Source: Bdellovibrionales bacterium
Lineage (GTDB): Bacteria; Bdellovibrionota; UBA1018; CAIMNF01
NCBI GenBank assembly: GCA_947502835.1
Contig: CANNBJ010000002.1
Span: forward strand, 62,001-126,000
DNA length: 64,000 nucleotides
Reading direction: 5' to 3'
The notes under the pieces were generated by a model, which was not told where the DNA came from, did no database searches, and saw only the letters and a list, made by a program, of their open reading frames with translations. The translations under genes were made by a program, and so were the position numbers. Positions 15,853 through 20,689 of the stretch are shown piece by piece. Each line of letters opens with the position of its first letter. The stretch's first letter is position 1.

Positions 15853-16031
15853 GTTTCCTGGATCGATTCAAACCCTTGTGCCGGATGAGAGGATCTCGTG
15901 AGGGCACAGGGGTGAATCGAAGGAAAAGGTTCAATAACCGTGGGGATTTCGGACCGGGTACGGTCCGGGATTTCCACACCAGAAAATCGGCATGGATTGC
16001 CGGCCGCGGTTTTGGTCGACTGCGGGTGCTC

Positions 16032-16060
16032 ATGGAGGACGCTTTTTATGGATGGATAGT
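16032..16060 (+). promoter_or_regulatory. Leader with tiny upstream ORF before second flagellin
   Basis: The GGAGG here (16034-16038) lies 22 bases from the flagellin ATG at 16061, too far to serve it directly. It is nine bases from an ATG at 16048 that starts a three-codon ORF (ATG GAT GGA TAG) ending one base before the flagellin start. Translation may depend on re-initiation. The rest of the 249-base gap shows an inverted repeat GGACCG/CGGTCC near 15953-15968 and no clear sigma-28 box. Confidence 0.35.
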
Positions 16061-16894
16061 ATGGGACTCAGAGTAAACACGAATATTTCTTCGCTGGTAG
16101 CCCAGCGGAGTTTGGCTGGAACAAAAAATGCCCTCAACAAGAACCTGGAAAGGCTCGCGAGCGGAAGCCGGATCAACACGGCCGGCGATGACGCCGCCGG
16201 ATTGGCGATTTCAGAGCATCTCAGGGCCCAAGTAAGGGGCCTGAAGCAGGCGAAACGAAATGCCCAGGACGGAGTATCCCTGGTCCAGGTTTCGGAGGGT
16301 GGATTGAATGAAGTGACAAACATCCTGATCCGGCTCCGGGAACTTGCGATCCAGTCGGCTTCGGATACCGTGGGAGACCGCGAACGCAGTTTCACGGACC
16401 GGGAATTCCAGGCGCTTAAATCCGAGATCGATCGAATCTCATTGAGCACGAATTTCAATGGAACCCCTCTCCTGAATGGACGGGCCGGAATCTTCGAGAT
16501 CCAGGTGGGAACCGGGAACAACCCGCTCACCGACCGGATTGTCTACGATGGACAGAATGCCGATGTGACGCTTGAGGCACTCCGGATGGTCGGAGAAAGC
16601 TGCGCGACAAAGCAAGGAGCCCAGCTTTCGCTTGCGGTACTTGACGATGCGATCGGGCAAGTGAGCAAGGTCAGATCGGACCTCGGCGCAATCCAGAACC
16701 GCCTCCAATCCACGATCAACAACATCGCGGTGAACGAGGAAAACATGACTGCGGCGAACAGCCGGATCCGGGACGCAGACCTTGCAGAAGAGGTCTCGGA
16801 GATGACCAAGAACAACATTCTCATGCAGGCCGGAATCTCCGTCCTGGGCCAAGCGAACCAAAGCGCCCAATCGGTGCTGAAGCTGCTCGGCTGA
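16061..16894 (+). CDS. fliC: Flagellin, second of three
   Basis: A 277-residue minimal flagellin closely similar to the third copy and less to the first. It starts MGLRVNTNISSLVAQRSL, has SGSRINTAGDDAAGLAIS at about 40-57 and ends NILMQAGISVLGQANQ, the normal D0 helix. The middle has VGESCATKQGAQ near 183, so it contains a cysteine, which is rare in flagellins and worth noting. The Shine-Dalgarno for this ATG is poor (see the leader feature). A perfect 12-pair hairpin follows the stop. Several flagellins of this size in tandem are typical of Bdellovibrio relatives with sheathed flagella (known from that group). Confidence 0.95.
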   Translation: MGLRVNTNISSLVAQRSLAGTKNALNKNLERLASGSRINTAGDDAAGLAISEHLRAQVRGLKQAKRNAQDGVSLVQVSEGGLNEVTNILIRLRELAIQSASDTVGDRERSFTDREFQALKSEIDRISLSTNFNGTPLLNGRAGIFEIQVGTGNNPLTDRIVYDGQNADVTLEALRMVGESCATKQGAQLSLAVLDDAIGQVSKVRSDLGAIQNRLQSTINNIAVNEENMTAANSRIRDADLAEEVSEMTKNNILMQAGISVLGQANQSAQSVLKLLG

Positions 16895-16904
16895 TAAAAA
16901 CATG

Positions 16905-16933
16905 ATTCCGGGGTGGTGATCCCACCCCGGAAT
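16905..16933. terminator. Perfect hairpin between second and third flagellin
   Basis: A 12-pair stem (ATTCCGGGGTGG with CCACCCCGGAAT) and a five-base loop, ten bases after the flagellin stop, followed by TTTAAC. The stem is strong but the T-run is only three, so it may terminate or protect the 3' end of the mRNA. Confidence 0.7.
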
Positions 16934-16934
16934 T

Positions 16935-16962
16935 TAACAAAAACCGGCAAGGATGCCGTGCG
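16935..16962 (+). promoter_or_regulatory. Possible sigma-28-like promoter of third flagellin
   Basis: TAACAAAA, 12 bases, GCCGTGCG. Only the GCCG core of the -10 box is good; the -35 box is weak. The position, about 58 bases upstream of the ATG and directly after the hairpin, is right for a separate flagellin promoter. Confidence 0.25.
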
Positions 16963-17019
16963 ACTCGAGGGATCGGGTCGGATCTTAAGGAGAAGAAAAC
17001 CCATGAATGGAGGCTGACT

Positions 17020-17853
17020 ATGGGACTAAGAATCAATACGAACATCTCTTCGCTCAGTGCGATGAGGACACTTGCTTCGACGAAGCATGCATTGGACGGA
17101 TCACTGGAGCGCCTGGCGAGTGGAAGTCGAATCAACCGCGCCGGGGATGATGCCGCAGGACTCGCCATCTCGGAGAATCTCAGGGCACAAATCCGCGGCC
17201 TGAGGCAAGCCAAACGAAACGCACAGGATGGGGTTTCCCTGATCCAGGTGACCGAAGGCGGCCTGAATGAGGTCTCGAACATGATCATCCGATTGCGCGA
17301 ACTGGCGATCCAGGCAGCTTCCGATACCATCGGGGACCAGGAAAGAAAGTTCACCGATCGCGAATTCCAGGCTCTGAAATCCGAAATCCAAAGGATCGCC
17401 GACTCGACCAATTACAACGGAAATCCATTGTTGAACGGTAAGGCTGGAATTTTCGAGATTCAGATCGGAAACCACAACAACCCGATCTCAGACCGGATCG
17501 CCTACAATGCCCAGAACGCGGACGTCACCCTCGAAGCACTCGGCCTTATGGGAGAGGCTGTGTCCACCAAGGTGGGTGCGCAGACCACGCTCAGCACCCT
17601 GGATGATGCCCTGATGAAGGTGAACTCGGTTCGTGCAGATCTCGGTGCGGTTCAGAATCGCCTCCAATCGAGCATCAATTCGATTTCGGTCAGCGATGAG
17701 AACCTTTCGGCCGCAAACAGTCGAATTCGGGATGCCGACCTCGCCCAAGAAGTTTCGGACATGACCAAGAACAACATTCTGATGCAGTCCGGGATCTCGG
17801 TACTGGGTCAGGCAAACCAGAGCGTCCAAGCGGCGTTGAAATTGCTATCCTGA
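17020..17853 (+). CDS. fliC: Flagellin, third of three
   Basis: A 277-residue minimal flagellin: MGLRINTNISSLSAMRTL at the N-terminus, SGSRINRAGDDAAGLAIS, and a C-terminal NSRIRDADLAQEVSDMTKNN with the usual hydrophobic heptads. GGAGG lies six bases before the ATG, the best Shine-Dalgarno of the three. A short upstream ORF (ATG AAT GGA GGC TGA) overlaps this Shine-Dalgarno and ends two bases before the start. It is probably a duplicate of the second copy but has no cysteine at the equivalent position. Its differences from the first copy suggest distinct positions along the filament (inference). Confidence 0.96.
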   Translation: MGLRINTNISSLSAMRTLASTKHALDGSLERLASGSRINRAGDDAAGLAISENLRAQIRGLRQAKRNAQDGVSLIQVTEGGLNEVSNMIIRLRELAIQAASDTIGDQERKFTDREFQALKSEIQRIADSTNYNGNPLLNGKAGIFEIQIGNHNNPISDRIAYNAQNADVTLEALGLMGEAVSTKVGAQTTLSTLDDALMKVNSVRADLGAVQNRLQSSINSISVSDENLSAANSRIRDADLAQEVSDMTKNNILMQSGISVLGQANQSVQAALKLLS

Positions 17854-17912: not shown

Positions 17913-18788
17913 ATGATGAGTACCCCGAAAAAAATCCTGATCGTCGGCGGAAGCGGTTTTGTTGGAACCCAACTGGCAAAATACCTCTCAAGAAAATATC
18001 CGGTGGTCTGCACCTACCGGAATGATTTCACCCCGGTACCGGGAGTGGACCATGTGGGCTTCAACGGGATCCAGGACAAGGACCGGTGCACAAGCCTCAC
18101 CCAACACCACCATCCGGACGTTGTGGTGTTTGCGGCGGGAAGCAATGATCCGGGCAAGGCGGAAAAAGAGTCCGCTCAGTCCCAGTTGATTCATCTGACG
18201 GGTGCCAATCAGATGCTGACTGCAACCGAGTACCTGAAGGCCAAATACATCTATCTATCAAGCGACTGGGTGTTTTCGGGGATGGAAGGGAATTTCGCTG
18301 AAAGTGACACTGCAATCCCCTTTCATGCCCTCGGAAAAACCAAACTCGGGGCGGAAAACTACATTCGCAGCCGCTCACTCAACCACATCATCGTCCGGTG
18401 CGCCCCACTTCTTGGCCGGGGCACACTCGATCATCCCTCCTGGCTTGATCGTCTGCGGGAGGCGGCAGCGTTTCAAAAACCCGTCGCCCTGTCGGACCGC
18501 TCCATCCATAATCCGGTACATGTGCGTGAGCTTTCCACTCTGATTGAACGGGTGATCGAGGGCGATGTACGGAACAAAACGCTCCACCTCGGGGGTTTGA
18601 CCCGAATCTCGGAATTCGACCTCGCCATGGAAATCTTCAAAAAGTTCGGATTCGATTCGAAGGGACTGTCACGACTCAAAGCCGGATCGGACAGCACGTT
18701 TCAGGATTACTCGCTGAACACGACGCAAACCCTGAAATTACTCAAGACTGAGCCCTTGTTCCTGGAGCAAAGCCTTGATTTGCTCTAA
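17913..18788 (+). CDS. RmlD-like extended SDR, degenerate active site
   Basis: A 291-residue NAD(P)-binding protein of the dTDP-4-dehydrorhamnose reductase type. The Rossmann motif GGSGFVGTQLA is near residue 11 and the Ser/Thr strand YIYLSSDWVFSG near 112. In true RmlD the next block reads P-x-x-x-YGKTK-x-x-GE with catalytic Tyr and Lys; here it reads PFHALGKTKLGAE, so the Tyr position is Leu. It may be a binding or regulatory protein rather than a reductase. It follows the flagellins without a clear terminator, so a link to flagellin modification is conceivable but unproven. GGAG precedes two ATGs (17913, 17916). The 3' end overlaps the convergent gene by 51 bases. Confidence 0.8.
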   Translation: MMSTPKKILIVGGSGFVGTQLAKYLSRKYPVVCTYRNDFTPVPGVDHVGFNGIQDKDRCTSLTQHHHPDVVVFAAGSNDPGKAEKESAQSQLIHLTGANQMLTATEYLKAKYIYLSSDWVFSGMEGNFAESDTAIPFHALGKTKLGAENYIRSRSLNHIIVRCAPLLGRGTLDHPSWLDRLREAAAFQKPVALSDRSIHNPVHVRELSTLIERVIEGDVRNKTLHLGGLTRISEFDLAMEIFKKFGFDSKGLSRLKAGSDSTFQDYSLNTTQTLKLLKTEPLFLEQSLDLL

Positions 18789-19328
18789 GAGCACTTTCTG
18801 ATTCGGCTTCACTTTCTTCTGTTCGCGAGTCATCCGCGTAAAATCCGAGAAGAAGTGTTTTGCGACCTGATCGCTTTCCACCTTCTCGGAACGGTACATC
18901 CAATGCACCTTCCCGAAGGCACCGAGTTGCGCGAGAAGCTCTTCCGCTTGGGGTACGGGAGATTCCCCGCCGATCGAAACCGTGGTGTGCCGATCATACG
19001 AAATCTGGATTGCGCCATGCGTGGTGTTCGCCACAATCAACTTGATCCCGTTCCGGTAGAGCATAAAATCGGCCGCACCCTGGGTCAGGTTGAAAATCTT
19101 GATTTCAGCAAACTTTTTTCCACCCTCGGACAAGGAATTGAAAACACGGACATATTCCTGAAAGTATGCCCTGAGATCCGTAAGGAACTCGACCGTGCTT
19201 TCCTCGATCGCCTGCTGAGGACCCACGCCCTGGGAAAGCTGATAGAGCGCTTCCGCCTCGGGAGATGACTCCGCCCTGGCGATTTCGTGGATCCAACCTT
19301 GATTCAGGCTCGAATTCATTCCGTTCAT
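18738..19328 (-). CDS. Hypothetical protein, about 196 aa
   Basis: No family recognised. Soluble, mixed alpha/beta, without signal peptide or membrane helix. The central part (QGAADFMLYRNGIKLIV and then ISYDRHTTVSIGG) looks like a beta-sheet domain; the end is Lys/Gln-rich helix (REQKKVKPNQKVLLEQ). The start is taken at the ATG at 19328, downstream of a sigma-70-like promoter whose predicted start point is within a few bases, so translation may be nearly leaderless; the ATG at 19319 is an alternative. Its end overlaps the convergent RmlD-like gene by 51 bases. Confidence 0.75.
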   Translation of the reverse strand: MNGMNSSLNQGWIHEIARAESSPEAEALYQLSQGVGPQQAIEESTVEFLTDLRAYFQEYVRVFNSLSEGGKKFAEIKIFNLTQGAADFMLYRNGIKLIVANTTHGAIQISYDRHTTVSIGGESPVPQAEELLAQLGAFGKVHWMYRSEKVESDQVAKHFFSDFTRMTREQKKVKPNQKVLLEQIKALLQEQGLSLE

Positions 19329-19336
19329 ACTTTTCA

Positions 19337-19366
19337 ATTCTAGGGATGCGAAAGCGGATAAGTCAA
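19337..19366 (-). promoter_or_regulatory. Sigma-70-like promoter for the 18738-19328 gene
   Basis: On the minus strand TTGACT, 18 bases, TAGAAT. The -10 box ends nine bases before the ATG at 19328, implying a very short leader. Confidence 0.55.
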
Positions 19367-19371
19367 GAAAA

Positions 19372-19546
19372 TGAAAGCTTGGGAGTACCAGCAAGACATT
19401 GGAGCCCCAGAATCTTACGTGGGCGCCGTATGCTCACTTTAGGCTTCCTACTCTGTGGCAGGCATGCTCACCATGAGACAGGCACAGCCCCCTGGGTCAA
19501 TGACTGTCGGGTCCAGATGTGTATTTAGACTGGACCCCCAAGCTGT
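19372..19546 (-). ncRNA. ssrS: Structured RNA, 6S RNA (SsrS) candidate
   Basis: The 398-base gap 19329-19726 has no convincing gene. On the minus strand it holds a sigma-70-like promoter and then about 170 bases whose ends pair perfectly (AGCTTGGG at the 5' end, CCCAAGCT at the 3' end), the usual closing stem of 6S RNA. Inside are paired CATTG/CAATG and CCCAG/CTGGG blocks and a hairpin GGTCCAG/CTGGACC. The apical part contains GGTGAGCATGC, then 13 bases later GGAAGCCTAAA; E. coli 6S RNA has GGTGAGCATGC and GAAGCCTTAAA at similar distance. 6S RNA binds RNA polymerase holoenzyme in stationary phase. The extra 5' hairpin is unusual for 6S, so the identity is tentative. Confidence 0.55.
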
Positions 19547-19551
19547 CTTTC

Positions 19552-19580
19552 ATTTTACCCATTTTTGGAAAAAGCCGCAA
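19552..19580 (-). promoter_or_regulatory. Sigma-70-like promoter of the 6S-like RNA
   Basis: On the minus strand TTGCGG, 17 bases, TAAAAT. The predicted start point, about seven bases after the -10 box, coincides with the first base of the 8-pair closing stem at 19544-19545. The rest of the gap, 19581-19726, shows no further feature. Confidence 0.55.
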
Positions 19581-19726: not shown

Positions 19727-20689
19727 ATGGGATTACGCATGGTTGGGAAAAAAATTTTAGTCGCGGATGACAGTCTCACGATTCAGAAAGTGATCCGACT
19801 TGCGCTCTCGGGTGACGGATATGAAATTCAAACCGTCTCGGACGGCAAGGAGGCAATTGAACAGGCGTCCTTGTTCAGACCCGACATTTGCATCATCGAT
19901 GTTTCCCTGCCGAAATACGACGCCTATCAAATCCGCGAGAAGTTCATCTATCAGGCTGATCTCAAGAACATCCCGGTGATCATGATGTCCAGCGCCTTCG
20001 AAAAAGTCGACGAGGCGAGGATGCAGGAACTCGGATTCTCCGGACATCTTGTGAAGCCGTTTGATCCATCCCACCTCCGGAGCACGCTTTTGTCAGTGGC
20101 CGAGCAGGCTTCCCGGGTTGATCCCGTGATGGACACGATCAATTCTCCCGTTGAAGCTTCAAACGAGCCGGAGGTGATGAGTCTCGACGAGATTTCTCCG
20201 ATGACCCTCGCCCCTCCGAAGCGCACGGTTGCGTTCGAGGAGTTCCCTCCCCTTGCAAATGATTTTCAGGGCGGGCTTGATGACATTCAAGAGCTCGCGA
20301 AAAACACGTTTGAGATGAGCGGCCTCAATCAGCATGATTGGGGAATGATCGAGCCTGGTCGGGGTCTTGAGCCTGCGGTCGAGGAGATGACGCTGAACAC
20401 CCCTCCTCCGCCCCGCCAAGGGCAATCAACAGTTCGTCACTCGGAAGTGACCGGATTCGACCTTACTCCACCGCCCCCTCCCCTGTCCGCTGAGCCCCGA
20501 TTCAGCGCCGAGGAAGTGGAAGCGATGGTGAAGTCCGAAGTGGCCCGCGTCCTTGAAGAGATGCATTTTCAGATCCAGGACAGGATCAATCATGAGATGA
20601 AACAGTTCACGGAAGAGTTCATTCCAAACCTTGCCGAGAAGATCATCAAGGATGAGATCCACAGGCTGCTCTCCAATCCACCCGTATGA
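19727..20689 (+). CDS. Response regulator with Pro-rich linker and C-terminal helical tail
   Basis: A 320-residue protein. Residues 5-125 are a receiver domain: VADDS acidic pair, the phosphoacceptor Asp in CIIDVSLPK near 57, MMSSAF (the usual Thr/Ser) and VKPFD with the conserved Lys. A low-complexity Pro/Ser/Glu linker follows (about 130-260, with PPPP and PPPPP runs), then a C-terminal amphipathic region of the form EVARVLEEM...[17 protein letters not shown], seen in receiver proteins of Myxococcus/Bdellovibrio relatives (from memory of the group). No HTH output, so it probably signals by protein contact, for example in motility. The stop overlaps rph (ATGA). Confidence 0.85.

Follow-up and report, generated by a model that had tools for sequence, protein, structure and literature searches.

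Does a short structured stretch on the minus strand of a Bdellovibrionales contig encode a 6S RNA, the small RNA by which bacteria hold RNA polymerase in reserve? And, if it does, is it a classical member of the family or a diverged one, and how would it let the polymerase go? The Bdellovibrio phylum makes sharp switches between growth and non-growth. Published surveys of 6S distribution exist. Below, the window is the whole 64-kb stretch of DNA that was analyzed; features are on the minus strand unless stated otherwise.

Identity and Distribution

The covariance model gives a direct answer to the first question. RF00013 matches the window at 19548–19371 (−) with 63.2 bits, compared with a gathering cut-off of 46.4 (E 3.8e-10), and the match, 178 nt long, covers positions 1–187 of the 187 in the model. 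It is the sole gathering-level match when the 64-kb window is scanned against all of Rfam 15 (cmscan). A search of the same 64 kb with ARAGORN gives neither a tRNA nor a tmRNA gene, and the genome of origin (2.73 Mb in 8 contigs, 98% complete) holds one copy of 6S. The region folds at −71.6 kcal/mol (z −2.8), a value equaled by 1 of 200 dinucleotide shuffles. The score of the window RNA is below that of most order members, which reach up to 89.3 bits.

An earlier, sequence-only reading of this DNA had described a structured RNA like 6S, to be checked with RF00013 and by covariation in relatives. Both checks bear it out: the match is above the cut-off, and the closing, P2, and apical stems covary in relatives. 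The elements that it had listed, i.e., promoter hexamers, end stem, apical strands, and internal hairpin, are all present in the sequence. The best explanation, and on this sequence evidence an almost certain one, is that the locus (ssrS; RNA nt 1–178 at 19371–19548, with transcription probably starting near 19545) encodes the single 6S RNA of the cell. Four lines of evidence lead to it together: the covariance-model match, the conserved −10 hexamer, a rod whose stems covary, and a gene order that relatives keep. The gene is an ordinary member of a known family.

As for the relatives, 53 of 58 have an RF00013 match at E 0.001 or better, the genome of origin counted, and 52 of these matches are above the cut-off. 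On the same terms, 259 of the 290 sampled genomes of the phylum have a match (243 above the cut-off). A 25-base pattern taken from the conserved bubble leads to 10 named contigs, seven of them titled as Bdellovibrionales, Oligoflexia, or Bdellovibrio MAGs, two as "Proteobacteria", and one as a "Nitrosovibrio" MAG. 6S RNA is with this firmly placed in an uncultured branch of the phylum to which the predatory Bdellovibrio belongs. Three genomes (G077, G246, and G278) have two matches each, which are possible second 6S genes.

The five relatives in which a match is missing are G011, G021, G041, G052, and G056. The neighbor gene runs into a contig end in G011 and lies at a contig start in G021, and these two absences look like assembly gaps. 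G041 (82% complete) has no match in its genome, including the 1.4 kb upstream of its relative of the 196-aa gene that lies downstream of 6S in the window; a tRNA gene (L108 2262–2333) stands beside that gene, where 6S would be expected. G052 and G056 give only short matches, of about 20 bases.

The Full-Length RNA

In the folding models, the full-length window RNA folds as a classical rod, with a closing stem, a central bubble, and an apical stem with covariation. In the MFE structure the 5' arm of the closing stem (RNA nt 5–20, 19529–19544) faces the 3' arm (nt 157–173, 19376–19392), after which comes a T-rich tail with no more than 4 T in a row in the window and as many as 8 in relatives. 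AGCTTGGG (19544–19537) and CCCAAGCT (19383–19376) form an exact 8-pair end stem. The 5' strand of P2, the downstream duplex (nt 29–40, 19509–19520), is the putative pRNA template, and it pairs with the 3' strand (nt 142–153, 19396–19407) in the MFE structure and with covariation. The pRNA would start at nt 43 (19506), the C after CCCGA, a placement that uses the RF00013 alignment position and the analogy with the E. coli start, U44. The template region is conserved in relatives and may serve as the template. The distal 5' side of the central bubble, AGUCAUUGACCCAG (nt 44–57, 19492–19505), is followed by the apical stem (nt 57–128, 19421–19492), which includes a −35-like region, with GGUGAGCAUGC and GGAAGCCUAAA and with consensus pairs that covary; its strands read GGTGAGCATGC at 19472–19462 and GGAAGCCTAAA at 19448–19438. 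The 3' central bubble and the 3' strand that follows it occupy nt 129–158 (19391–19420).

How well does the rod hold among relatives? All 53 sequences were taken into the pairing, permutation, hairpin, nascent-fold, and template-block tests. In the full-length window RNA, the bubble motif, which reads CUGGACCC here, is paired with the 3' bubble strand with a probability of 0.86 and with the 5' arm with 0.01. The means over the 53 full RNAs are the same, 0.86 and 0.01, and the mean for the 5' arm with the 3' arm is 0.74. Two sequences, L003 and L053, are exceptions, with only 0.09 and 0.07 for the motif and the 3' bubble strand.

For the apical stem, an alignment of 51 order members (A2, the 53 without the two same-class genomes L004 and L051) has 23 predicted consensus pairs, 9 of them changed on both sides. 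The outer stems were not recovered by RNAalifold on A2 because the closing arms are misaligned there, so that permutation of the arms was used instead. Column counts for P2 and for the collapse helix discussed below come from 39 of the 53 sequences (A3), without L004 and L051 and without the 12 members of the window's own family, which were left out because the register of their collapse helix differs. In these 39 relatives, 91.6% of the P2 cells are paired, compared with 85.9% in shuffles, and 10 cells are changed on both sides, compared with 2.8; there are 4 such pairs. Since related sequences inflate permutation tests, the 53 sequences were reduced to 25 clusters (75% identity). When their own partners are compared with permuted ones, the closing stem stands out by far (z −14.0), followed by the collapse helix (z −6.4) and P2 (z −4.8).

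The 5' Hairpin

Another question is what the internal hairpin on the 5' side stands for. In folds of 5' prefixes, the arm GGGUCCAG (19530–19537) pairs with CUGGACCC (19509–19516), which consists of the same bases as the 5' strand of P2; in the sequence, GGGTCCAG (19537–19530) stands against CTGGACCC (19516–19509). The hairpin has a probability of 0.98–1.00 while the prefix measures between 40 and 166 nt; at 170 nt and beyond, this falls to 0.01 or less, and in the full RNA it is about 0.01. For a hairpin so probable in prefixes and so improbable at full length, nascent RNA is the most plausible setting. Most likely, as far as the models tell, it is a passing structure of the nascent transcript that would be undone once the 3' arm has been made.

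Might this intermediate be selected, either to shield the template until the 3' arm is made or to compete later with the pRNA? The hairpin repeats the putative pRNA sequence, and the prefix probabilities suit an intermediate of this kind. In addition, the nascent RNA of 42 of the 53 relatives and of 17 of the 40 outgroup sequences has at least half of its bubble motif paired to the 5' arm, but these counts carry no null model, and an equilibrium fold of a prefix is not a kinetic model. When matched arms are compared with permuted ones in the unthinned sets, P is 0.0008 for the 53 sequences, 0.033 without the family, and 0.0024 for the 40 outgroup sequences; after thinning to 25 clusters, the conservation of the hairpin is not significant (z −1.2, P 0.11). 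We therefore consider selection for the hairpin unlikely.

The sequence-only reading had gone further and had seen in this hairpin, which is not part of the classical fold, a possible sign of a diverged 6S type. This would require the hairpin in the ground state, and we hold it to be very improbable. It is true that the hairpin has 8 perfect pairs in the window and in G008, that the pairing of the 5' arm with the bubble motif reaches 0.05 or better against dinucleotide shuffles in 10 of the 53 relatives, and that the unthinned permutations speak in its favor. Yet the hairpin has a probability of only 0.01 in the full window RNA and on average over the 53, and the thinned test does not sustain it. 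Moreover, five of the other 11 family members read GGGACCAG at this site, that is, with an A–A mismatch, and in these genomes the closing stem stays paired through a compensatory change on the 3' side; what is kept by the changes that break the hairpin is the closing stem. A passing structure of the nascent transcript is hence the reading that we retain.

Promoter and Gene Neighborhood

A sigma-70-like promoter, TTGCGG-N17-TAAAAT, had been proposed upstream of the RNA. Both hexamers are there, and the −10 part has stood the test. TAAAAT (19552–19557), 17 bases from TTGCGG, is kept in relatives: 52 of the 53 have a −10 hexamer that agrees with the consensus at 5 or all 6 positions, compared with 17% in shuffles. 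TTGCGG itself (19575–19580) is a weak −35-like hexamer with a 3/6 match to the consensus, and conservation of a −35 box is at chance level (a score of 3.19 in the 53 relatives and 2.94 in shuffles). With the score this near to that of shuffles, TTGCGG is not supported as a functional −35. The 6S promoter is missing from the list of a general promoter scan of the window.

The genes around 6S are kept as well. A divergent response regulator gene lies within 400 bases of 6S in 52 of the 53 relatives (in the window, 19727–20689 on the plus strand; Pfam Response_reg, E 2.2e-19), the gene for a 196-aa protein lies within 1 kb downstream in 48 (18741–19328 in the window), and a convergent RmlD-like gene is nearby in 40. 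Several of the misses fall at contig or locus ends. A relative of the 196-aa gene also adjoins 6S in one genome of family f10 and in one of f15. Two tandem flagellin genes (the Pfam comparison covered the second one) are close to the 6S locus at 15992–17853 (+), and flagellin genes are near 6S in a number of relatives too. That the locus holds some other structured RNA, or a pseudogene remnant that merely resembles 6S, is hardly credible: the weak −35 would suit it, but the full-length model match, the single copy, the covariation, and a −10 hexamer and gene order kept across the order all speak against it.

The 196-aa protein has no sequence match in Pfam, NCBIfam, or the PDB. A Foldseek search with its predicted structure (mean pLDDT 76, from a 29-row alignment) gives nothing at E 0.001 or better, and the VIA Z scores are 8 to 10 with frataxin-like and other chains, too weak to assign the protein a function. 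The gene has a promoter-like site of its own, TTGACT-N18-TAGAAT, at 19366–19337 (−). In 21 of the 53 relatives a TTGACA lies no more than 60 bases downstream from the 6S match, compared with 0.8 expected; judged by sequence, this excess agrees with the next gene having a promoter to itself. The promoter-like site of the window stops 8 bases short of the first ATG in the 196-aa gene; with so short a gap, the mRNA of this gene may have no leader or almost none.

The Release Step

If the window RNA works as the known family does, its folded rod would mimic an open sigma-70 promoter. The sigma-70 RNA polymerase would bind the rod when nutrients are scarce, and the bound RNA would lower transcription at many promoters. 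On the return of nutrients, the polymerase would copy a short pRNA, probably beginning 5'-GUCGGGUCC, from a template at about 19519–19506, on the 5' side of the bubble, and this synthesis would open P2 and free the polymerase. What forms once P2 is open? The prediction is a collapse helix in most relatives and a hairpin of the 3' strand in the window RNA and in G008. Both elements have precedents. As described in PMC8876501, gamma-proteobacterial 6S refolds upon pRNA synthesis through a 9-bp hairpin in the 3' bubble, and B. subtilis 6S-1 and A. aeolicus 6S refold through a central bubble collapse helix, defined there as the pairing of the distal 5' bubble with the 3' strand of P2.

The release step was modeled by blocking the putative 14-nt template in all 53 RNAs and folding them. 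In these predictions, 4 or more pairs of the collapse helix arise in 44 of the 53 and 4 or more pairs inside the 3' strand in 13, some of which have the collapse helix as well. The collapse helix reaches 0.05 or better against shuffles in 25 of the 53. Over the 39 relatives, 85.4% of its cells are paired, compared with 80.7% in shuffles, and 16 cells are changed on both sides, compared with 5.4. Counts for both P2 and the collapse helix thus exceed those in shuffles, and the covariation score of both exceeds that of every slide; by plain counts, sliding the collapse helix by −1 gives 18 both-side cells as against 16, and sliding it by +3 gives 8 such pairs as against 7. Of 40 sequences from outside the order, 9 have a collapse helix at 0.05 or better, including 4 of the 5 from f10.

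The window RNA behaves differently. Its collapse helix has 10 possible pairs (CAUUG/CAAUG and CCCAG/CUGGG), does not rise above shuffles (0.255), and is missing from the MFE structure of the template-blocked RNA. Its 3' bubble and 3' strand are predicted to form a 10-pair hairpin (GUAAGAU/GUCUUGC and UGG/CCA) of −9.3 kcal/mol, a value equaled by a fraction of only 0.005 of dinucleotide shuffles; this follows the gamma-proteobacterial pattern, in which the 3' bubble and the downstream-duplex 3' strand make up the hairpin. With the template blocked, this hairpin has 8.6–8.7 expected pairs and the collapse helix 0.9. In G008, the closest relative of the genome of origin, the 3' hairpin is predicted to win too. 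A 3'-strand hairpin at 0.05 or better is found in only 4 of the 53 RNAs, and within the window's own family only in these two. Among the template-blocked relatives, the collapse helix is clearly favored in G009, G006, G001, G005, G010, and G012 and less clearly in G003, G004, G002, and G007. The test needs the whole 3' bubble, as a shorter segment missed the hairpins of the window RNA and G008. As a control, it recovers the known 3' hairpin of E. coli K-12 6S (0.002) and finds its collapse helix missing (0.958).

The predicted release step, then, differs within the order: most members would collapse the bubble, and the window RNA and G008 would form a 3'-strand hairpin. A more general proposal, which we put forward only tentatively and with more doubt than confidence, is a two-way switch throughout the order. 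The 3' bubble strand would pair either with the template, as P2, or with the distal 5' bubble, both pairings covarying, and the window RNA and G008 would have swapped the second for a 3' hairpin of the E. coli type. Since the two genomes with the predicted replacement belong to one genus, the release step may be swappable over a short evolutionary distance. That close relatives are predicted to have exchanged their release elements is the sole part of the analysis that could surprise a specialist. If the swap is real, natural pairs of relatives would allow one to test which element releases the polymerase and why both exist.

Comparison with Known Systems

One point of comparison is genome G118, probably Bdellovibrio bacteriovorus HD100. 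It has an RF00013 match of 85.7 bits at G118:C1:182914–183093 (locus L114), but here 6S stands apart from the relative of the 196-aa gene (587309–587809), unlike in the window. The collapse helix is not above shuffles in any of the f13 sequences tested, G118 included. 6S RNA is unmentioned in the main text, as far as available, of an RNA-seq paper on B. bacteriovorus (PMC3627812). The literature searched, which did not extend to subscription papers, yielded no study of 6S RNA in the Bdellovibrio group; this is no proof of absence.

With E. coli ssrS, the window RNA shares the full-length model match, the rod with its central bubble, and the apical strands GGUGAGCAUGC and GGAAGCCUAAA, as well as the predicted hairpin of the 3' strand. 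The hairpin of the window is, however, made from other bases, and most of the order is without one. The genomic setting differs too: response regulator, 6S, and 196-aa gene in the window, and zapA, ssrS, and fau in E. coli. With B. subtilis 6S-1 and A. aeolicus 6S, the likeness is found in the order and class as a whole, through the collapse helix predicted in the large majority of template-blocked RNAs, whereas for the window RNA and G008 the models favor the 3' hairpin. 6S RNA and its mechanism are already known; what is new here is a member in the Bdellovibrionales.
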